A stretch of 7,449 bases of DNA from Hydrogenophaga sp. (GTDB lineage Bacteria > Pseudomonadota > Gammaproteobacteria > Burkholderiales > Burkholderiaceae): positions 1-7,449 of the forward strand of contig JALOSH010000096.1 of NCBI GenBank assembly GCA_025458545.1. The letters run 5' to 3'. Positions 1 through 7,449 of this stretch are shown piece after piece. The stretch's first letter is position 1. Each line of letters begins with the position of its first letter. The notes beneath the pieces were generated by a model. It saw nothing but the letters and a program-made list of their open reading frames with translations, made no database searches and was not told the DNA's origin. Position numbers and translations under genes: made by a program.

Positions 1-567
1 GGTGGCTGACATGACCTACGTGCCGACCTGGATGGGCTTCCTCTACCTGGCCGTGGTCATTGATGTCTGGAGCCGGCGTGTGGTGGGCTGGGCCATGGGA
101 GAACGCATGACCGCAGACCTCGTGCTTGCAGCGTTGAACATGGCGCTGGAGCAACGCAAACCCAAGGGCGTCATTCATCACAGCGATCAGGGCAGCCAGT
201 ACACCAGCCTGGCCTTCGGCGAGCGCTGCCGGCAGATGCAGGTGCGCCCGTCCATGGGAACGGTGGGCGATGCTTACGACAACGCAATGGCCGAGAGCTT
301 CTTCGCCAGCTTGGAGGGCGAACTCATCGAGCGCAACAGCTTCCAGAGCAAGGCCCAGGCCCGCATGGCGGTCTTCACCTGGATTGAAGGCTGGTACAAC
401 CCCAGGCGCCGCCACAGCGGCCTGGGCTATCTCTCACCGCTGAACTTTGAAAGGAGCAAGCAGGCCCTGTTCGATGTTGTCGACGATGCCGTCTTGCATG
501 CCCAGACAACACTCGACACGGTTTGAGAATCAAACCGAAAACCGTCCACGGAAGTGGGTCAACTCCA
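1..567 (+). mobile_element. IS3-family insertion sequence, right part
   Basis: The element covers the partial orfB and a short non-coding tail. The probable right inverted repeat is at about 542-567. Read on the other strand it begins TGGAGTTGACCCACTTCCGT, which has the TG...CA terminus expected of IS3 elements. The left end lies outside the window, so neither the matching repeat nor the target-site duplication can be checked. The boundary at 567 is inferred from the terminal CA and could be off by a few bases (569 is the other candidate). Confidence 0.55.
2..526 (+). CDS. IS3-family transposase, orfB C-terminal part (partial, cut by window start)
   Basis: This is the catalytic integrase-core part of an IS3-family OrfB, which cuts and joins IS ends as the OrfAB fusion. 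The frame is open through the left edge, so the N-terminal part (the helix-turn-helix region and start of the HTH_21/rve domains) is missing. All three catalytic acidic residues are visible: Asp in ADMTY at residue 3 of the visible part, Asp62 in HHSDQGSQYTS, and Glu98 in DAYDNAMAESFF. The second Asp and the Glu are exactly 35 residues apart, the classic DD35E spacing. The C-terminal RRRHSGLGYLSP motif is also typical of the family. The visible part has no frameshift or stop, so the copy looks recent and possibly active. It lies at the 3' side of the island integrase and points towards it. I did not assign the IS3 subgroup. Confidence 0.93.
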   Translation: MADMTYVPTWMGFLYLAVVIDVWSRRVVGWAMGERMTADLVLAALNMALEQRKPKGVIHHSDQGSQYTSLAFGERCRQMQVRPSMGTVGDAYDNAMAESFFASLEGELIERNSFQSKAQARMAVFTWIEGWYNPRRRHSGLGYLSPLNFERSKQALFDVVDDAVLHAQTTLDTV

Positions 568-597
568 CATGTCGAATTCCCCCACCGGACTTCGAAC

Positions 598-2124
598 TCA
601 ACTCCTGGACATAACTCTCTTGCTCATTTGATTTGAGCTTCCCGCTTTGCCCGGCGTGGTTTTGGTCATCAAGGCGGATAGCTTTTTCCCGAGAGACTCG
701 AATGCGGCCGCTTGTTCGCGTTCACGTCGGTCGTGGATGTATACGCGCCGCATGCGACTTTCCATCATGTGGTTGAGGCATTCGTCGACCACATCGCCAG
801 AAACTCCCAGGCTAGCCATCAAGGTTGCAGTGGTGCGGCGGAGATCATGTGCCGTCCATCGGCCGCCAGGGAGACGTAAGGCCTCCGTGGCCTTGCTGCG
901 ACCAGACATACGCTGTTCGGGCGTGCGCTGCCTGTCGCTCAGCTGTTTGCCGAAGCTCTTTACGCAAACGGGATACATGTTGTCTCTCGCAGGGAAAACC
1001 CAGGGCGCAGACGAGTCGGTGCCTTGGGCTTTTTCCCTCAGGGCGGATAGGGCCTCGAATTGCTTGACTGCAAACTCGCTGAGATGAATGGAGTGTGATC
1101 GCTGATTTTTGGTGTCCTGGAGGTACCAGGTCCGTTTTGCCAGGTCAACGATGCCGACCTTGACCCCATCGCTATCTGCAAGGGACTGGAGGCCCTCCAG
1201 TGCATTCCTTTGCTCTACGGGTTGGTCTGGCAATGCTTCTCGCCAGACAGCTCCCATCAATTCCCCGACCCGAGCGCCGGTGGCCAGCAACAGTCGGATG
1301 GCCAGGGCGCTGCGCTTGCTCATTCGCGCAGCTGGAATAGCCAGAGCTAACGTCTTGATTTCTGCCTCGGCGAGAACACGGGTTCGTTCTACCGCAGTTC
1401 CCACGACCCGTGACTTTTTGATACTCGCCAATGGATCTGAGTCGATCAGTTCCCGGTCGAGTGCAAACGCCATCATCTGCCGCAGGTCGCTCAGGATCAC
1501 GGCGGCCGTGCGGAGCTTGCCATCAGCTTTTTGGGCATCGATCAGGGCAAGAACGTCCGCCTTTCTTACCTCAGCAATCGGGCGGTCCCCCATGGCAGGA
1601 AAGACGTGGCGTTCAAACTGTTGATGCACGTATGTGCCTCCATCCTTGCGGCCAGTGCGCTTTCCATCCGCCCGGGTTGTTGGCTGCAGTTCGGTCTCAC
1701 GCCAGCGCTGAAACACCTGCCTGACGGTCAGGCGCCGTTCGGCCTCCAGCGCCAACTGTCGCATCCTCTCTACTTCAGCAGCCTTGCTTGTAGTTTCGGC
1801 TTCGACCTGACTTTGAGCCAGTAGTTGAAGGTGCTCGCGCAAATCCTTGGCGCCGGTCCTGTACAGAGAAGATAGTTCACGAGCTCTGCTTCTGGCTTGC
1901 TGAACAGTAAAGCTGCCCCTTCCATCGCCGTTCGGGTCGTATGGGCCAATCAGCAGTCGAACACGCTCTCCAGCACTGGACGTGTAGCGGAAGTAAAAGG
2001 ACCGGGCCCCTGCTGGTGTGATCCGTCCCACCAGTCGACCGTCCCCACGCGCACCGTCCTCGATCAGCCAGGCGTCTTTCTCGCCTGGCTTCCTCTTCAT
2101 CTCCCGGTCCGAAATGATCGTCAC
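598..2124 (-). CDS. Tyrosine-recombinase integrase of a tRNA-targeting genomic island
   Basis: A 508-aa phage/island-type tyrosine recombinase that catalyses site-specific integration and excision between attP and a tRNA-embedded attB. The N-terminal part (about residues 10-100) resembles the arm-binding region of P4-type integrases, with SFYFRYTSSAGERVRLLIG. Residues about 110-130 are helical and charged, and about 130-235 form the SAM-like core-binding domain. The catalytic set is complete: Arg285 (ATGARVGEL), Lys339 (DTKNQRSHSI), His426 and Arg429 (TAHDLRR), His452 (LNHMM) and the nucleophile Tyr462 (RRVYIHD). The start is GTG at 2124, supported by GGAG at 2130-2133 with 5-base spacing. 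The ATG nine codons in has no properly spaced site. The gene ends about 30 bp from the probable IS end and starts about 195 bp from the tRNA-Pro fragment, the usual int-next-to-att arrangement. It looks intact and should be functional. Confidence 0.95.
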   Translation of the reverse strand: MTIISDREMKRKPGEKDAWLIEDGARGDGRLVGRITPAGARSFYFRYTSSAGERVRLLIGPYDPNGDGRGSFTVQQARSRARELSSLYRTGAKDLREHLQLLAQSQVEAETTSKAAEVERMRQLALEAERRLTVRQVFQRWRETELQPTTRADGKRTGRKDGGTYVHQQFERHVFPAMGDRPIAEVRKADVLALIDAQKADGKLRTAAVILSDLRQMMAFALDRELIDSDPLASIKKSRVVGTAVERTRVLAEAEIKTLALAIPAARMSKRSALAIRLLLATGARVGELMGAVWREALPDQPVEQRNALEGLQSLADSDGVKVGIVDLAKRTWYLQDTKNQRSHSIHLSEFAVKQFEALSALREKAQGTDSSAPWVFPARDNMYPVCVKSFGKQLSDRQRTPEQRMSGRSKATEALRLPGGRWTAHDLRRTTATLMASLGVSGDVVDECLNHMMESRMRRVYIHDRREREQAAAFESLGKKLSALMTKTTPGKAGSSNQMSKRVMSRS

Positions 2125-2129
2125 AAAAA

Positions 2130-2133
2130 CTCC
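2130..2133 (-). promoter_or_regulatory. Ribosome binding site deciding the integrase start
   Basis: On the - strand, GGAG sits 5 bases before a GTG codon at 2124. This favours the GTG over the in-frame ATG at codon 9, whose only purine-rich tract touches the start codon directly. Confidence 0.6.
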
Positions 2134-2146
2134 GTATGTCAGGCTT

Positions 2147-2185
2147 CACCGAACGGGCACGGGATTCTCTGGTGCCCGTTCGGTG
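2147..2185. promoter_or_regulatory. 14-bp perfect inverted repeat ahead of the integrase gene (operator or leader hairpin)
   Basis: CACCGAACGGGCAC at 2147-2160 and GTGCCCGTTCGGTG at 2172-2185 are perfect reverse complements with an 11-base spacer. A further direct half-copy, GGTGCCCGTT, occurs at 2182-2191 and overlaps the right arm. The repeat lies about 23-61 bp upstream of the integrase GTG. It could be an operator for a repressor, possibly the integrase itself. If the promoter lies further upstream, it could instead fold as a long hairpin in the int mRNA leader. It is not followed by a T-run in either direction, so it does not look like a terminator. Confidence 0.6.
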
Positions 2186-2210
2186 CCCGTTTCTCACTGG
2201 ATTTCAGTGT

Positions 2211-2292
2211 ACCTTGATGAACCTTGATGTACGATGGATTTTGATTTAATGTTGATTTATAAAGATAAAATAGAAAAACATAGACCTTGATG
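2211..2292 (+). repeat. Repeated ACCTTGATG / TTGAT motifs, candidate integrase arm-type sites
   Basis: ACCTTGATG occurs three times in the same orientation, at 2211-2219, 2221-2229 and 2284-2292. The shorter core TTGAT also appears at 2241-2245 and 2252-2256, giving five in 80 bp. The first two are 10 bp apart and the next pair 11 bp, close to one helical turn. The stretch from about 2225 to 2290 is strikingly AT-rich for this GC-rich window. Short direct repeats between int and the core site are typical of the arm-binding sites read by the integrase N-terminal domain. That role is inferred here. Confidence 0.5.
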
Positions 2293-2302
2293 GACGTCTA
2301 TG
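2279..2302. repeat. 7-bp inverted repeat beside the attachment site
   Basis: CATAGAC at 2279-2285 and GTCTATG at 2296-2302 are reverse complements with a 10-bp spacer. The spacer holds most of the third ACCTTGATG copy. The repeat ends 18 bp before the tRNA-derived core. It may bind an excisionase or accessory factor, or be chance. Confidence 0.35.
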
Positions 2303-2319
2303 GAGGTTGTGTGGATTGA

Positions 2320-2364
2320 ATGGGGTGCAAGGGGTCGCGAGTTCGAATCCCGCCACGCCGACCA
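2320..2364 (+). other. 3' fragment of tRNA-Pro(GGG): island attachment site (attR side)
   Basis: The sequence reads as a tRNA from the anticodon loop onward: loop ATGGGGT (anticodon GGG at 2322-2324), the 3' strand of the anticodon stem GCAAG, a 5-base variable region, the T arm with loop TTCGAAT (2342-2348), the acceptor strand CACGCCG (2354-2360), discriminator A and encoded CCA (2362-2364). A 3' acceptor strand ending in G before ACCA implies C1, a tRNA-Pro hallmark, and the layout parallels E. coli proL. Nothing upstream resembles the D arm or the 5' acceptor strand, so this is not a functional tRNA. The 45-bp identity block starting at the anticodon loop is a usual crossover place for tRNA-targeting integrases. 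A normal T stem would pair fully, but here 2340(A)-2350(C) is a mismatch, perhaps drift in a copy no longer under selection. Confidence 0.85.
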
Positions 2365-2376
2365 TTTATCTCAGAA

Positions 2377-2407
2377 GCCCGCAACCGAAAGGTTGCGGGC
2401 TTTTTTT
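2377..2407 (+). terminator. Rho-independent terminator, originally of tRNA-Pro
   Basis: A perfect 10-bp stem GCCCGCAACC / GGTTGCGGGC closes on a GAAA tetraloop and is followed by seven T (2401-2407). It begins 12 bp after the tRNA CCA end and reads on the + strand, so it would have ended the tRNA transcript before the island entered. It could now stop transcripts leaving the island towards the convergent Nudix gene. The - strand side lacks a T-run, so it is probably one-directional. Confidence 0.92.
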
Positions 2408-2455
2408 GTTTCTGGATGGGATGCTGCGGGTTTTCGGGGGTCTTTGAAACCAGAT

Positions 2456-3010
2456 TCAGACGATGTCGAGCGTGTGGAAGCCGAAGCGACCCTGGCGACG
2501 GTCTGCGAAATAGTGTTCCAGGGTCTCGCGCACGGTCCGGAATGCGATGTCTTCCCAGGGGATCTGGTCTTCGGTGAACAGCCGGGCTTCGATGGTTTCG
2601 AAGCCCGGCTTGAAGTGGTCGCTGAGCAGCCGGGCACGGTAGTACAGGTGTACTTGGCCGACCCGCGGTACGTTCATGAGAGTGAACAGTTCGCCCAGTT
2701 CGATCTGGGCGCCGGCTTCTTCGTCGGTTTCGCGTGCTGCGCCTTGTGCGGTCGTTTCGCCCAGTTCCATGAAGCCGGCGGGCAGGGTCCATTTGCCGCG
2801 GCGCGGTTCGATGTTGCGCAGGCAGAGCAACACCTGTTCACCGCTCTCACCCCACACCGGCACGGTACCGACCACGTTCAGCGGATTTTCGTAGTGAACG
2901 GTATGGCAGACGGTGCAAACGGCCCGGGGTTTGGTATCGCCGTCGTCGGGCAGGCGGTAGCTGACCGGGGCGCCACATTGGCGGCAGTGCTGGATGGGGC
3001 TGCGTTGCAT
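2456..3010 (-). CDS. Nudix hydrolase with N-terminal zinc ribbon
   Basis: A 184-aa Nudix pyrophosphohydrolase that would cleave a nucleoside diphosphate linked to another moiety. The substrate cannot be read from sequence. The N-terminus carries two CxxC pairs, Cys9/Cys12 (HCRQCG) and Cys32/Cys35 (VCTVCH), followed by YENPLNVVG, as in the Nudix_N_2 zinc-ribbon family. The Nudix box is a full match to GX5EX7REUXEEXGU: Gly79, Glu85, Arg93-Glu94, Glu97-Glu98, Gly100. WTLPAGF directly before it is also typical. I chose ATG at 3010. The frame extends eight codons further to a TTG at 3034, but that extension lacks a ribosome site and homologues usually begin close to the zinc ribbon. No strong Shine-Dalgarno is visible for either start. 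It is probably a single-gene transcript in old chromosomal context beside tRNA-Pro, separated from the catabolic operon by the terminator at 3061-3084. Confidence 0.93.
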   Translation of the reverse strand: MQRSPIQHCRQCGAPVSYRLPDDGDTKPRAVCTVCHTVHYENPLNVVGTVPVWGESGEQVLLCLRNIEPRRGKWTLPAGFMELGETTAQGAARETDEEAGAQIELGELFTLMNVPRVGQVHLYYRARLLSDHFKPGFETIEARLFTEDQIPWEDIAFRTVRETLEHYFADRRQGRFGFHTLDIV

Positions 3011-3060
3011 GCGCCAAAGTGTAGGGGGAATCAAAAAGACTCTGCTGGGAGCCCCAAAGA

Positions 3061-3084
3061 AAAGGGCTCTGTGCAGAGCCCTTT
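3061..3084 (-). terminator. Rho-independent terminator at the end of the catabolic operon
   Basis: AAAGGGCTCTG (3061-3071) and CAGAGCCCTTT (3074-3084) form an 11-bp inverted repeat, or 10 bp with a 4-base loop. On the - strand the stem runs into TTTTCTTT. It lies about 30 bp after the stop codon of the TRAP binding-protein gene, so it likely ends that operon and insulates the Nudix gene. The + strand flank is not T-rich. Confidence 0.85.
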
Positions 3085-3115
3085 CCGTGACGCAGGGACG
3101 GACCTCCGTGAGTGA

Positions 3116-4198
3116 TCAGCCCTTCTTGGCCGGCGCGGCTTTGCCCGGCGCCGCGGCTGTCTTGCCGTGTTTCTCGATCAGCGACTTGGCGGAGTCGAGC
3201 AGCTGCTTGCCGTTGAAACCGCGCTTGTCCATGTCCTGCATCCATTCCACCTCGACCAGGCGCGCCTTGCGTCTGAATTCTTGCGCTTCGCTGGCCGGAA
3301 TGGTGTGGATGGTGTTGCCTTGCTTCACCGCCGAATCGCGACCGGCCACGTCACCAGCCTGCTGTGTCTTGCCCAGCCAGCCGGACGTTTCAACGCCGGA
3401 ATTGCGGTCGATGATGGCCTTGAGGTCCGGCGGCAACGAAGCGTACTTGGCCCTGTTCATGGCCATGATGAAGGTGGTGGTGTAGAGCGCGCCGCCGGCG
3501 GGGTCGAACTCGCTGTGGAATTTGGTCAGCTCGTGCACCTTGACCGAAGGCACGACCTCCCAGGGGATCACGCAGCCGTTGATGGCGCCTTTGGAGAGCG
3601 CGTCCGGAATCTGCGGCAGCGGCATGCCGACGGGCGTGGCGCCCAGGTAGCCGAGCATTTTGGTGATCTGGCGGGTGGGGCCCCGCACTTTGGAGCCGCG
3701 CAGGTCGTCGGCTGTCCTGACGAGCTTCTCTCGCATGTGGAACACGCCCGGGCCATGCACTTGCAGGGCAATCGGGTGCACTTCCCGGAATTCGTCCTTG
3801 GCGACGGTCTGCACATACTCCCAGTAGGCTTTGGAGGTGGCCTCGGCGTTGTTCATCATGAACGGCAGCTCGAACACTTCGATGCGCGGGAAGCGGCCTG
3901 GGGTGTTGCCGGGCAAGGTCCAGACCACATCGACGACGCCGTCCTTCGCCTGGTCGTACAGCTGCACCGGTGAGCCGCCGAGCTGCATGGCCGGGTAGGC
4001 CTCGAACTTGATGCGGCCGTCCGAGTCTTTGGTGACCTTGTCCATCCAGGCCTTGTGCATGTTGAGCCACACATTGGATTGCGGTGACATGAAGGTGTGG
4101 AACTTGAGCGTGACGGTTTGCTGAGCGAAGCCGACCAAGGCGGGCGCGCCCAAGGCCACGGCTGCACCGGTCTGAAGCAGGGTTCTGCGCTGGATCAT
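3116..4198 (-). CDS. TRAP transporter substrate-binding protein, DctP family, probable Tat export
   Basis: A 360-aa periplasmic solute receptor for a TRAP transporter, which carries small organic acids into the cell using an ion gradient. The N-terminus MIQRRTLLQTGAAVALGAPA has a twin arginine, a moderately hydrophobic stretch and a likely cleavage near GFA-QQ (about residue 25), suggesting Tat export as for many DctP proteins. The mature protein starts TVTLKFHTFMSPQS. It holds the family region LRGSKVRGPTRQITKML-GYLGATPVGMP at about residues 166-193, where Arg172 corresponds to the carboxylate-binding arginine of DctP/SiaP. The tail (about residues 345-360) is an Ala/Pro/Lys-rich extension, probably disordered. 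ATG at 4198 is preceded by AGGAGA with 8-base spacing. It is the last gene before a terminator and lies 184 bp from the FAH-family gene. No DctQ or DctM permease gene follows, so the permease is elsewhere, perhaps upstream in the operon. An aromatic carboxylate ligand is inferred from the neighbours only. Confidence 0.93.
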   Translation of the reverse strand: MIQRRTLLQTGAAVALGAPALVGFAQQTVTLKFHTFMSPQSNVWLNMHKAWMDKVTKDSDGRIKFEAYPAMQLGGSPVQLYDQAKDGVVDVVWTLPGNTPGRFPRIEVFELPFMMNNAEATSKAYWEYVQTVAKDEFREVHPIALQVHGPGVFHMREKLVRTADDLRGSKVRGPTRQITKMLGYLGATPVGMPLPQIPDALSKGAINGCVIPWEVVPSVKVHELTKFHSEFDPAGGALYTTTFIMAMNRAKYASLPPDLKAIIDRNSGVETSGWLGKTQQAGDVAGRDSAVKQGNTIHTIPASEAQEFRRKARLVEVEWMQDMDKRGFNGKQLLDSAKSLIEKHGKTAAAPGKAAPAKKG

Positions 4199-4382
4199 GT
4201 AAGGGGTCTCCTGTAGGGGTTCAAAGGATCGGGATGGGATGGATTCAGGACTTGGCTACGGTAAGGGCTATTCAAAAGATGTGGTTTCGGGGCAAACCCG
4301 CGTGACCGGGTGCAAATTCCACACGCCGGGCCGTTTCCCCAGGACGTGCACACGAACGACCAGCCGGACCGGCCGGCGCAGC
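4199..4382. other. Gap between FAH-family and TRAP receptor genes
   Basis: This is the longest gap in the operon, 184 bp, with no gene I can support. It holds the binding-protein ribosome site (TCTCCT at 4207-4212, read on the - strand). It also holds a weak hairpin, GGTTT (4283-4287) with AAACC (4294-4298), which has no proper T-run. A separate promoter for the receptor gene is possible, but I see no convincing -35/-10 pair. Confidence 0.4.
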
Positions 4383-5078
4383 TCAGGCCACCTGGACCGA
4401 AATGCTGGTCAGGCCGTCCACGCCGCCCACCATCGTGTCTCCCTGCACAACCGCCGCCACGCCCTCTGGCGTGCCGGTGTAGATCAGGTCCCCAGGCTGC
4501 AGTTCCCAGGCGCTGGACAAATGTTCGATGGTTTCGGCGATGTTCCAGATGAGTTTGCCCACGTTGCTGCGCTGGCGGTCAACGCCGTTGACCTGCACCC
4601 AGATGGCCGCGTGGTGGATGTCGCCCGCGTCTGCCGCGGGGGTGATCGGGCCGATGGGTGCAGACTGGTCAAAGCCTTTGCCGATGCACCAGGGACGGCC
4701 CTGTTTTTTCATCTCGTTCTGCAGGTCGCGGCGCGTCATGTCCAGGCCGACCGCGTAGCCGAAGATGTGCCGGGCGGCGTCTTTTGCCGGGATGTTTCGG
4801 CCCCCCGAACCGATGGCCACCACCAGCTCGATCTCGTGGTGCAGGTTGGCCGTGAGCGTGGGGTAGGGGATGGGGGCGGTTTGACCGGATTCGGCCACCA
4901 CGATGGCGTCCGCCGGCTTGAGAAAGAAGAAGGGCGGCTCGCGCCCGGTGAAGCCCATTTCTTTGGCGTGTTCTTCGTAGTTGCGGCCCACGCAATAGAT
5001 GCGGTGCACCGGGAAGCGCTCGGCGCGGCCCACCACGGGCACAGACACCACAGCGGCGGGGGAAAAGACGTAGCTCAT
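4383..5078 (-). CDS. Fumarylacetoacetate hydrolase family protein, fumarylpyruvate-hydrolase-like
   Basis: A 231-aa single-domain FAH-family enzyme. Members hydrolyse or decarboxylate 2,4-diketo acids late in aromatic breakdown, using a divalent metal. Landmarks: RIYCVGRNYEEHAKEMG (about 26-42), PPFFFLKPADA with Lys54, metal ligands Glu82 and Glu84 (HHEIELVVAIG) and Asp113 (GLDMTRRDLQ), and LIYTGTPEGV (208-217). The combination of MTRRDLQNEMKKQGRPW, KGFDQSAPIGPI and the short length is closest, from memory, to fumarylpyruvate hydrolases of the gentisate pathway (NagK-type). It is less like 2-oxopent-4-enoate hydratases. ATG at 5078 has AAAGG 5 bases upstream. It starts 47 bp after the ferredoxin gene in the same direction, so it is very probably cotranscribed. 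Family membership is firm, but the substrate is inferred. Confidence 0.93.
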   Translation of the reverse strand: MSYVFSPAAVVSVPVVGRAERFPVHRIYCVGRNYEEHAKEMGFTGREPPFFFLKPADAIVVAESGQTAPIPYPTLTANLHHEIELVVAIGSGGRNIPAKDAARHIFGYAVGLDMTRRDLQNEMKKQGRPWCIGKGFDQSAPIGPITPAADAGDIHHAAIWVQVNGVDRQRSNVGKLIWNIAETIEHLSSAWELQPGDLIYTGTPEGVAAVVQGDTMVGGVDGLTSISVQVA

Positions 5079-5125
5079 GTCAACCTTTCAGTTCGTCAGG
5101 GGTGCGGCGGAAGGTGCACGGCAAC

Positions 5126-5449
5126 TCAGTGCTGAGCAGCGGGCAGCCGCACGAGCAGGCCATCGAGTTCGGGCGTGAGCTGTATCTGGCAACTGAGACG
5201 GCTGCCCGGCTCCGTGGGGCTGGCGGCAAAGCCGAGCATGTCACGTTCTTCGGCCGTGGGTGCCGGCAACACGCCAGTCCAGGGCGGCTCCAGCAGCACA
5301 TGGCAGGTGGCGCAGCTGAGCGCGCCGCCGCAGTCGGCTTCGATGCCGTGCAGGTTGGCGTTCACGGCGGCTTGCATCAGGCTCTGGCCGGTCGGCGCCT
5401 GCAGGGTGTCTTCGGTGCCGTCGGCTCGGATGAATCGGATCTGGATCAT
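5126..5449 (-). CDS. [2Fe-2S] ferredoxin, putidaredoxin/adrenodoxin type (SadD-like position)
   Basis: A 107-aa soluble electron carrier with one [2Fe-2S] cluster. The ligands are Cys40, Cys46, Cys49 and Cys87, in the pattern C-x5-C-x2-C-x37-C (ADCGGALSCATCHVLL ... RLSCQIQL). The C-x5-C spacing and the late RLSCQI cysteine are typical of the putidaredoxin/adrenodoxin/Isc ferredoxin group. Length is normal and no reductase domain is fused. ATG at 5449 lies 23 bp after the stop of the GS-like gene and has only a weak ribosome site, so translation may depend on coupling. A longer in-frame reading upstream exists but only overlaps the GS-like gene out of frame, so I reject it. Beside a Rieske oxygenase, its likely job is to pass electrons to the Rieske cluster. 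The reductase that would reduce it is not in the window. Confidence 0.93.
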   Translation of the reverse strand: MIQIRFIRADGTEDTLQAPTGQSLMQAAVNANLHGIEADCGGALSCATCHVLLEPPWTGVLPAPTAEERDMLGFAASPTEPGSRLSCQIQLTPELDGLLVRLPAAQH

Positions 5450-5472
5450 GTCAGCACGGGGTGGTTCAGGGT

Positions 5473-6951
5473 TCAGGTCCGGGCGAAGTATTCGCGCCGT
5501 TCGAAATCGGTCTTGTCCTGGGCGTCGGTGTGGCGGTCGATCTCGGACTGTTTGACGCGGCAGAAATGGCGCACCACATCGTGCCCCAGGCCGGCGACCA
5601 GCTCGCTGTCGGCCTGGAGCGCGGCGAGCGCGTCGTTCAGGCTGGTCGGTATGCCGCGCCGCTGGCTGGCGTACGGCGTGTCCGAGGCGCTGGCGGGCTC
5701 CAGTCCGCGCTGCAGGCCGTCCAGCCCGGCATGGATCTGCGAGGCGATGTACAGGTAGGGGTTGGCGGCGGGCTCGCCGATGCGGTTTTCGATGCGGGTG
5801 GCGCCGTCCCCGGCGCCGCCCACCACCCGCAACATGGCGCCCCGGTTGTCTCGGCCCCAGAGCACGGCATGGGGCGCGAGCGCGTTCGGCCGGAAGCGCC
5901 CATAGCCGTTGACGGTGGGTGTGCACAGAGCGGTCATGCCCTCACCGTGGGCCAGCAGGCCGGCCAGCCAGTGGGCGCCGGTATCGGACAAGGTGTGGCG
6001 CGCGTCGTGCGGCTGGGTGTCCGGCGCCGGTGTCGCGCGGGCAAAGGCGTTCTGCCCGGTGCCGCTTTCCACCAGCGACTGGTGCAGGTGCCAGCCGCTG
6101 GACATGATGTTCGGGAACGGCGGGCGGCACATGAAGCTGGCGTGGTAGCCCGCACGACGCAGCGCCTGGCGCACGCCGTTGCGGAACAGCACCATCTGGT
6201 CGGCCGCGGTGAGCGCGTCGGTGGCGTCGAACACGGCTTCGACCTGGCTGGGGCCGAGTTCGATCTCCAGCGATTGCAGCGGCAGGCCCAGTGCCTGCGC
6301 GGTTTGCATCACGGTGCGCAGCGGCTCGTCGGCCAGGTCGCTCATGGCCTCTGACTGCAGGTTGTAGCCCGGGTGGATCATCTCCACACGCGGCGGCAGG
6401 CCGGGCCAGGCGGCGAGTTCGGGATCGAGCTGCGGCGCGGTGTCGGTGATGCGGTAGATGTGGAACTCCACCTCCAGGCCGGTCTTGAGCCCGTAGCCCT
6501 GTTGGCCCAGCTGGGCCAAGGCCCGCTGCAGCACGTACCGGCTGTCGAGCGGCACCGGCTTGCCCTCCTGGAACCAGGGCTGGCAGCGCAGCCAGCCGGT
6601 GCCTTCGCTCCAGGGCAGCAGGGTGAAGCTGGTGGGGTCGGGCAGCAGCATGAGGTTGGCCGCGCCCGCAAAGCCGGGCAGGTCGGCCGTTGCGCCCGGT
6701 TCGAACACCTTCCAGGCGGTGCGGTCAGAGGTGTCCTTGAGCATCATCGTGCCCACCATGCCTACCCCCTCGCGCAGTGCCCGGACCGCGGCATGGGCCA
6801 TGAGCGTCTTGCCGCGCAGCATGCCGTGCACGTCGCACCAGCCCATGCGCACCCGTTGCACGCCACTGGCTTCGATCAGCTTGGCGGTGCGTTGGCACGC
6901 CGCTTCGCGGGCTGCGTCCTGGATGCCGCAGCGATGGGCGAAAGACGTCAT
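5473..6951 (-). CDS. Glutamine synthetase-like protein (gamma-glutamyl ligase; SadB/aniline-type)
   Basis: A 492-aa member of the GS fold family, likely to ligate glutamate to an amine using ATP, as proposed for gamma-glutamylanilide synthases. The N-terminal beta-grasp domain includes VRMGWCDVHGMLRGKTL (about 34-50). The catalytic domain shows metal/ATP-site signatures: Glu160 and Glu162 (GLEVEFH), Glu231 and Glu238 (EIELGPSQVE), His288 (SSGWHLHQSL), Arg352-Arg354 and Asn369-Arg370 (NGYGRFRPNA ... WGRDNRGAM), Glu388 (ATRIENRIGEPAANPYLY). It lacks the adenylylation-loop features of housekeeping GlnA. A Trp-His-Leu-His replaces the more usual Met-His-x-His, as far as I recall also in aniline-type homologues. 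I chose ATG at 6951. It overlaps the Rieske stop as ATGA, a coupled arrangement, and the frame's longer upstream part only shadows the Rieske gene. The equivalent SadB is reported as essential for dioxygenase activity in E. coli. Substrate here is unknown. Confidence 0.9.
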   Translation of the reverse strand: MTSFAHRCGIQDAAREAACQRTAKLIEASGVQRVRMGWCDVHGMLRGKTLMAHAAVRALREGVGMVGTMMLKDTSDRTAWKVFEPGATADLPGFAGAANLMLLPDPTSFTLLPWSEGTGWLRCQPWFQEGKPVPLDSRYVLQRALAQLGQQGYGLKTGLEVEFHIYRITDTAPQLDPELAAWPGLPPRVEMIHPGYNLQSEAMSDLADEPLRTVMQTAQALGLPLQSLEIELGPSQVEAVFDATDALTAADQMVLFRNGVRQALRRAGYHASFMCRPPFPNIMSSGWHLHQSLVESGTGQNAFARATPAPDTQPHDARHTLSDTGAHWLAGLLAHGEGMTALCTPTVNGYGRFRPNALAPHAVLWGRDNRGAMLRVVGGAGDGATRIENRIGEPAANPYLYIASQIHAGLDGLQRGLEPASASDTPYASQRRGIPTSLNDALAALQADSELVAGLGHDVVRHFCRVKQSEIDRHTDAQDKTDFERREYFART

Positions 6952-7449
6952 GTTGCGCCCGCCGTGTCGGTGTTGCCGGACCGTGCAGCGGTCAGCCAGG
7001 GCGCACCACGGCGTTTGGCCTGCACCGCTTCTTGCCACCAGGCCTGCCAGCCGTCGGCCGGTGCGATGCCATCCACGGTGTCGGGGCCGGTGATCTGGCC
7101 GTGCACGGCGGGGTCGGCGATGCCCGGCGGTGTGCCGCCCTGTTGCACGGTGTCCATGGCCTGGAGCAACATGCGCCGGTTTGCCATGATCACTTTGTCT
7201 GTGGTGCCCAGGTGCTCTCGGGTGCGGTCCTGGACGGCGCCCATGCTTTCGCAGGCCCATTGGTCGTGCACGTTGATGTCGTCCTCGCCCATGCCGAGGT
7301 AAGTGCGGTTCTGCTGCTCCTCGGCGTTGAAACCCCACCGGTTGTGGCGGCCAGACCTGGGGATGTAGTCGGGCAGGGTGACGGCGGACAGCCGCTGGTT
7401 GCGCATGGTGTCCTTGTCCACCGGTTTGTCGAAACTGGTGAAGAAGGCG
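6948..7449 (-). CDS. Rieske-type aromatic ring-hydroxylating oxygenase, C-terminal part (partial at window end)
   Basis: The last 166 residues of a non-heme iron oxygenase alpha subunit. The frame is open through the right edge, with visible residues starting AFFTSFDKPVDKDTMRNQR. The Rieske cluster domain and the two iron-binding histidines lie outside. The segment HDQWACESMGAVQDRTREHL is the conserved C-terminal block of phthalate-4,5-dioxygenase-type oxygenases (typically xxDxxVQESMG..DR..EHLG). By alignment with dicamba monooxygenase, the Asp of HDQW (codon 7263-7265) is the predicted iron ligand. It is followed by TTDKVIMANRRMLLQAM and GGTPPG, also usual here. This class is homo-oligomeric without a beta subunit, consistent with no beta gene nearby. 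It is the first visible gene of the operon and its TGA overlaps the GS-like ATG. The position fits SadA of 4-aminobenzenesulfonate dioxygenase, though demethylase or phenoxybenzoate-type activity cannot be excluded. Confidence 0.9.
   Translation of the reverse strand, partial: AFFTSFDKPVDKDTMRNQRLSAVTLPDYIPRSGRHNRWGFNAEEQQNRTYLGMGEDDINVHDQWACESMGAVQDRTREHLGTTDKVIMANRRMLLQAMDTVQQGGTPPGIADPAVHGQITGPDTVDGIAPADGWQAWWQEAVQAKRRGAPWLTAARSGNTDTAGAT

Follow-up and report, generated by a model that had tools for sequence, protein, structure and literature searches.

What does a glutamine synthetase (GS)-like ligase do between a Rieske oxygenase and a ferredoxin, and on which amine does it act? This question is raised by a 7449 bp stretch of Hydrogenophaga sp. 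DNA (contig JALOSH010000096.1, positions 1 to 7,449; hereafter the window), which carries a sad-type operon on its minus strand. A first-pass annotation had recognized three neighboring genes at 5126..7449, coding for an oxygenase, a GS-like protein, and a ferredoxin, and had compared them to sadABD. The three genes are confirmed there by their domains (PF19301, PF00120, and PF00111), and the order oxygenase, GS-like, ferredoxin on one strand, which marks sadABD, is that of the window. We consider it probable that the operon, as a sadABD orthologue, serves the glutamylation of an anionic arylamine and a subsequent dioxygenation that releases the amine, with an aminobenzoate as the likeliest natural substrate. 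The amine substrate was given as an inference in the first-pass annotation and has the same standing here.

Organization and distribution of the operon

The Rieske gene encodes a SadA-type oxygenase alpha subunit, of which the C-terminal 166 amino acids lie in the window (6948..7449, minus strand; PF19301, LigXa_C, 31.9 bits against a cut-off of 27) and share 72–90% identity with Hydrogenophaga orthologues. The window does not reach the 5' part of the gene, which encodes the Rieske cluster domain; a full-length orthologue (L002:8619-10001) contains both the Rieske domain PF00355 and PF19301. The stop codon of the Rieske gene overlaps the start codon of the GS-like gene as ATGA. The latter encodes a SadB-type, GoaS-like ligase of 492 amino acids, presumably a gamma-glutamyl-arylamide synthetase (5473..6951, minus strand; PF00120, E 2e-72), and is followed after 23 bp by the gene of a SadD-type [2Fe-2S] ferredoxin of 107 amino acids, which is putidaredoxin/FdVI-like (5126..5449, minus strand; PF00111; 4ltu, E 9e-26).

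The adjacency of the Rieske and GS-like genes is not due to chance, because a SadA-type Rieske gene is the next gene upstream, on the same strand, in 77 of the best 80 loci kept from a scan of species genomes with the window GS-like protein (100 relatives), at spacings between a 51 bp overlap and a 220 bp gap. Two of the three loci without an upstream Rieske gene end at a contig edge (L042, L053), leaving L052 as the sole real exception. Among 67 Hydrogenophaga genomes, GS matches (best E < 1e-160; a few in pieces) and Rieske matches (E < 1e-90) were each found in 53, the same genomes holding both. The 14 genomes with neither gene at these thresholds are all at most 4.0 Mb in size, and one of them (G030) has the regulator and the start of the Rieske gene at a contig end. 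GS and Rieske distances are correlated (0.90 over 54 loci), which is expected from shared descent and is no proof of interaction. A DNA search of plasmids with the operon gave no match. Sad-type pairs also occur in contigs labeled as Flavobacteriales, Acidimicrobiia, and other Alphaproteobacteria (L068, L075, L078, L080); L068 and L080 are near-identical despite different phylum labels, and one label may be a binning error.

The sad-type module consists of a Rieske gene (PF00355 and PF19301), a GS gene, often a ferredoxin gene, and often a divergent GntR regulator gene, to which some plasmid modules add a reductase and a gamma-glutamyl hydrolase; one Hydrogenophaga locus (L127) is a second sad-type module with a reductase. 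The aniline-type module consists of GS, amidotransferase, alpha (PF00848), beta, and reductase genes, and this order is absent from the window. Separate aniline-type genes, either a GS or a module, occur in five Hydrogenophaga genomes, and an aniline module accompanies the core operon in L125, L126, L128, and L129. Two of these DcaQ-like modules encode GS, alpha, beta, and amidotransferase proteins 98–100% identical to those of plasmid pI2.

Orthology to sadABD

It is close to certain, judged by synteny with a genome (G013) presumed to be H. intermedia, that the window operon is orthologous to sadABD, so that the resemblance first pointed out is raised to orthology; no SadA or SadB by name appeared among the 120 matches listed per search. 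The available part of PMC5632844 describes the sad operon as conserved in all reported Hydrogenophaga, with an original substrate that was probably a natural compound, and the conservation of pcaH2G2, pcaB2, and the 4-sulfomuconolactone hydrolase (4-SLH) gene as limited to H. intermedia. Since that source restricts such genes to H. intermedia, we infer this identity for G013, the only one of the 67 Hydrogenophaga genomes with 4-SLH over the cut-off (603 bits, cut-off 500; weaker relatives in 44 others), where the gene lies beside those of a pcaB-like (3-carboxymuconate-cycloisomerase-like) lyase and a maleylacetate reductase. The G013 operon has the same gene order as the window, including the downstream fumarylacetoacetate (FAA) hydrolase family, DctP, and NUDIX genes, with identities of 72% (Rieske fragment), 72.6% (GS), 61% (ferredoxin), 81% (FAA hydrolase), 86% (DctP), and 80% (NUDIX). 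It contains the only close SadA-type Rieske protein of that genome, which is 55% identical to the protein of Novosphingobium resinovorum SA1 (the next is at 38%) and groups among Hydrogenophaga. The reductase homologues of G013 (49%, 47%, and 36%) are located away from the operon, in agreement with the 2012 work of Gan, in which sadC was reportedly cloned separately.

Two other candidate markers of H. intermedia proved not to be specific: protocatechuate dioxygenase matched in 61 of the 67 genomes with none over the cut-off, and maleylacetate reductase in 30 of 67, but the latter pointed to contig C97 of G013. This genome also has a second GoaS-like piece at a contig end (L135:78-686), 99.5% identical to DcaQ. 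H. intermedia is described as requiring a p-aminobenzoate supplement (PMC5632844, available part), which would be odd if its sad enzymes also destroyed p-aminobenzoate.

The GS-like ligase and its amine tunnel

The best solved relative of the window GS-like protein is NpaA1 (8wwu, E 2e-100; entry named in PMC11335346). Among the 120 matches listed, the closest is 91% identical; most of those with an organism name belong to Hydrogenophaga, and the first is from a Gammaproteobacteria metagenome-assembled genome. The protein scored far below the NCBIfam equivalog cut-offs of GlnA (199 against 429 bits), type III GS (217 against 470), and gamma-glutamylputrescine synthetase (209 against 650), which agrees with its proposed separation from GlnA and polyamine ligases. 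It has the GS catalytic domain and the amine-pocket glutamates (NpaA1 E232, E234) that mark GoaS-like proteins and is presumed to be a maker of gamma-glutamyl arylamides.

In a GS tree of 66 rows, which did not include G013, the aniline-type proteins and NpaA1 form one clade (100 in the Shimodaira–Hasegawa-like approximate likelihood ratio test, SH-aLRT) with the window protein outside it. The assignment of the ligase to an aniline/SadB branch in the first-pass annotation thus stands for SadB, with 72% identity to the presumed H. intermedia protein, and fails for aniline, with 42% identity to DcaQ (41% for the G013 ligase). The sad-type rows do not form one clade; the window protein lies among Hydrogenophaga and other Comamonadaceae in a clade with a long branch (SH-aLRT 100), and the aniline clade is nested among sad-type rows, so that the sad-type label needs four changes. 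As the outgroup branch is very long, no direction of evolution between the two types is claimed.

The amine tunnel of NpaA1 is described as formed by F75, M81, F86, and W235, and the pocket by V201, E232, and E234 (PMC11335346, available part). The corresponding residues were compared in 241 sad-type rows, 225 of them distinct and some genomes represented twice, drawn from 87 loci with a Rieske partner, the window, the 120 best homologues (their partners unchecked), and 33 genus loci. Eight aniline-type rows were set apart, as were five rows for which no partner was found, two with K at position 75 (L052, L121), one with F (L120), and two truncated (L042, L053). Every one of the 225 distinct sad-type rows has K at position 75, where the eight aniline-type rows have F, H, or V; this residue is K72 in the window (codon at 6736..6738, minus strand). 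Position 81, a specificity site that aligns with T78 of the window (codon at 6718..6720, minus strand), is T in 220 of 225 rows, K in two (both G013), N in SA1, and S in two metagenome proteins, and I, F, or V in the aniline-type rows. A core clade of 192 of the 225 rows, the window included, combines D at position 79 with L at position 201; the other 33 have H or N (one X) at 79 and Y (one F) at 201, and the two types are never mixed.

SA1 is listed as a sulfanilic-acid degrader in the available part of PMC6167471. Among 97 columns conserved in at least 98% of the other 222 rows, G013 departs at one and SA1 at four, position 81 being common to both. The odds of this coincidence by chance are about 4 in 97, and the site had been spotted by eye before the scan. 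The closest relative of G013 among those compared, G008, has a 97.8% identical ligase with T at position 81 and no 4-SLH over the cut-off. Between the two, the ligase differs by 11 amino-acid changes, the T-to-K change at position 81 among them, and 82 silent codons; for the Rieske protein the counts are 26 changed against 43 silent codons, and for the ferredoxin 11 against 12. Both partners have changed more than the ligase, which weighs against a retuning of the ligase alone.

The Rieske oxygenase

The nearest solved relatives of the Rieske protein are isophthalate dioxygenase (IPDO; 9ina, so named in the available part of PMC12445078), a putative phthalate 4,5-dioxygenase (7fhr), and phthalate dioxygenase (7fjl, listed in PMC12445004). 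IPDO is reported to hold the two carboxylates of its substrate by R234 and H257 (PMC12445078, available part). In each of 84 sad-type Rieske rows, R is kept at the equivalent of R234 and Q stands at that of H257; one genome is represented twice in this set, four loci of odd length were omitted, and the window fragment was too short to be included. The kept R and the replacement of H257 by Q fit a substrate that has one anion on the ring and, on the opposite side, a group that is not a carboxylate. Changes shared by G013 and SA1 were also looked for in the oxygenase, and no Rieske column conserved at 90–99% is changed in both.

Regulation, uptake, and genomic context

The predicted GntR operator, the palindrome AAACGGKATACCRTTT, is situated outside the window in the gap that separates the GntR/FCD and Rieske genes. 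In 37 loci with a divergent regulator it is found with at most one mismatch in 27, with three to four in seven (mostly Ramlibacter-type), and with five to seven in three of plasmid type; the best match in seven loci without a regulator there has five to six. At no more than one mismatch it occurs in 46 of the 67 Hydrogenophaga genomes at 47 distinct places, 45 of them just upstream of the operon (G030 included) and two elsewhere, while nine operon-bearing genomes have no site at the operon. A reversed control pattern matched in 2 genomes. A promoter and terminator scan of the window gave counts equal to those in shuffled sequence.

The gene cluster extends downstream of 5126..7449 to the gene of an FAA-hydrolase family protein of uncertain role (4383..5078, minus strand; PF01557; syntenic in Hydrogenophaga), 47 bp after the ferredoxin gene, and, 184 bp further, to that of a tripartite ATP-independent periplasmic (TRAP) solute-binding protein, DctP (3116..4198, minus strand; PF03480), which is followed by a NUDIX hydrolase gene. 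DctP is 73% identical to the top-ranked match 5im2, the title of which ends before the ligand name, and 45–48% identical to aromatic-acid binders, including TarP_Sse with coumarate or cinnamate (45–47%). Its structure matches at ranks 2–18 are titled as aromatic-acid binders (rank 14 being an open form of one), which places it in the TarP-like group; the model was weak (mean predicted local distance difference test score 62.9) and was used just to read the titles of relatives already found by sequence. TarP of R. palustris is reported to bind coumarate and its kin at nanomolar Kd (PMC3610893, available part). The protein is thus likely to serve the uptake of an aromatic acid, and TRAP permease genes adjoin in some loci (L036, L046).

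The FAA-hydrolase protein has 6j5y (FAA hydrolase family) and then 4maq (putative fumarylpyruvate hydrolase) as structure matches. Nine loci, from Ramlibacter, Caenimonas, and Polaromonas, have a gentisate 1,2-dioxygenase gene nearby (one checked, over the NCBIfam cut-off), and eight of them also have a relative of the FAA hydrolase (one of the eight partial); this neighborhood may explain the hydrolase. A gentisate route in Hydrogenophaga was dropped, because 3 of 67 genomes have the dioxygenase over the cut-off and 58 have weaker matches. In H. aromaticivorans (L002:12670-16799), five extra genes lie between the FAA hydrolase and DctP genes; of the two scanned, one encodes a family-2 glycosyltransferase and the other matches no Pfam family. 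At the other end of the window, a tyrosine integrase gene (598-2124, minus strand) adjoins a remnant of a tRNA-Pro(ggg) gene, its last 45 bp (2320-2364); L005 and L009 have an intact tRNA-Pro(ggg) gene at the corresponding position after the NUDIX gene. This arrangement resembles one boundary of an integrated island. The 3' part of an IS3-family transposase gene lies at 2-526 (plus strand).

Proposed function and alternative explanations

A precedent for glutamylation is given by NpaA1 and AtdA1 (PMC11335346, available part), and by analogy glutamylation is likely to precede dioxygenation. The substrate would probably enter through the TRAP system for aromatic acids. In an ATP-dependent step, the SadB-like ligase would then couple an anionic aromatic amine through its amino group to the gamma-carboxyl of glutamate. 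The resulting glutamyl-arylamide would be dioxygenated, at the carbon that bears the amine and the one next to it, by the SadA-like, alpha-only Rieske protein, which would receive electrons via the SadD-like ferredoxin and an unlinked NAD(P)H:ferredoxin reductase. The adduct may then shed the gamma-glutamyl amide to leave a catechol-type acid. An anionic arylamine is the probable substrate because K at NpaA1 position 75 and R at IPDO R234 are invariant in sad-type rows, and it fits with the adjacent aromatic-acid-type binding protein. The best single guess for the natural substrate is 4-aminobenzoate, with conversion to protocatechuate as the first candidate reaction. In favor of a ring acid, PnbB-family (4-hydroxylaminobenzoate lyase family) genes, together with nitroreductase genes, lie near two plasmid modules (L112, L119) and protocatechuate (pca) genes near a third relative (L121). 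The H. intermedia sad operon serves 4-aminobenzenesulfonate deamination (PMC5632844, available part), which would be a recruited substrate.

Several observations weigh against this reading. The PnbB context is limited to 2 plasmid loci and occurs in 0 of the 80 genome-contig loci, and both plasmid modules have Y at 201 and H at 79; the pca-linked L121 has F and G at these positions and no adjacent Rieske gene. With L201 and D79 in its long-branched Comamonadaceae clade, the window copy may have a substrate different from theirs. No gamma-glutamyl hydrolase of AtdA2 or L112 type was seen near Hydrogenophaga operons by tblastn. The FAA hydrolase and TRAP genes may be mere neighbors. The closest DctM of Hydrogenophaga (74–81%) occurs in 26 genomes, in 16 of them no more than 10 kb from ligA, and 6 of the 26 have no sad operon, which makes its link to sad loose. 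LigA itself is present in nearly all genomes of the genus (50 of 53 genomes with the operon, 12 of 14 without) and does not discriminate. pcaH2G2 was not found in G013, where three TIGR02422 hits all fell below the cut-off, as in every genus genome searched, so that 4-SLH and the two neighboring genes are the grounds for taking this genome as H. intermedia.

The core-clade operon could instead use a different amine, such as an alkylamine or an anionic arylamine that is larger or not a benzoate, with only H. intermedia and SA1 relatives meeting benzenoid sulfonates. We regard this as a rather unlikely but serious alternative. The core clade does have a pocket of its own, L201 with D79 in 192 of 225 rows and never mixed with the Y/F201 type, on its separate branch with full SH-aLRT support; however, K75, E232/E234, and Rieske R234 are all kept, and the H. 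intermedia enzyme, whose operon deaminates 4-aminobenzenesulfonate (PMC5632844, available part), is itself of the core type. An aniline-type operon of the AtdA/TdnQ/DcaQ kind acting on neutral anilines is highly improbable. It would share the partnership of a GoaS-like ligase with a Rieske oxygenase, but such operons run GS – amidotransferase – alpha – beta – reductase, pair a PF00848 alpha with a beta subunit, and have a GS of a different clade (SH-aLRT 100); the tunnel residue F75 of NpaA1 is K in the window, and five Hydrogenophaga genomes have an aniline-type GS or module besides. On gene order, subunits, and the GS tree, the aniline-type assignment was rejected.

Glutamylation of an anionic arylamine by a sadABD orthologue is therefore the preferred reading, and a wider one may be sketched, possible though doubtful as a whole: the sad type would be a large group apart from the aniline dioxygenases, built for anionic arylamines by a ligase Lys and an oxygenase Arg, with an ancestral role in the breakdown of natural aminobenzoates, from which sulfanilate degradation arose at least twice (H. 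intermedia and SA1), each time with a position-81 change that retuned the ligase gate. No study of the natural substrate of the sad operon was found in the literature searched. The original-substrate question of the Hydrogenophaga sad genes (raised in the available part of PMC5632844) may be narrowed to anionic arylamines, aminobenzoates first, and residues K72 and T78, the predicted GntR operator, which is nearly confined to this operon, and the adjacent aromatic-acid-type binding protein offer handles on it. GS-like genes beside alpha-only Rieske genes, often labeled glutamine synthetase and phthalate dioxygenase, probably mark arylamine catabolism.

Comparison with known systems

The isophthalate and phthalate dioxygenases of Comamonas testosteroni KF1 (9ina, 7fjl) are likewise alpha-only Rieske enzymes, and the anchoring R234 of IPDO is conserved, whereas Q replaces H257 throughout the 84 sad-type rows; these dioxygenases are not known to have a GS-like partner. 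The aniline and naphthylamine modules (AtdA, TdnQ/DcaQ, NpaA1) resemble the window operon in having a GS-like ligase ahead of a Rieske dioxygenase, but differ in their alpha/beta oxygenase, amidotransferase gene, hydrophobic amine tunnel, and separate GS clade.

Plasmid pSA3 of N. resinovorum SA1 has the Rieske and GS-like pair in common with the window, and K75 and Rieske R234 are kept. However, its GS is about 43% identical, belongs to a different GS clade, and has N at position 81, and its ferredoxin and reductase genes lie some 4–5 kb from the pair. In comparison with sadABD, the 4-aminobenzenesulfonate 3,4-dioxygenase genes of H. intermedia PBC, the window ligase has T instead of the presumed K at position 81, and the window holds no sulfocatechol genes. 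The two systems share an alpha-only Rieske oxygenase, a GS-like ligase, and a ferredoxin (72, 72, and 61% identical to the presumed orthologues in G013), the gene order, and the downstream synteny of the FAA hydrolase, DctP, and NUDIX genes.

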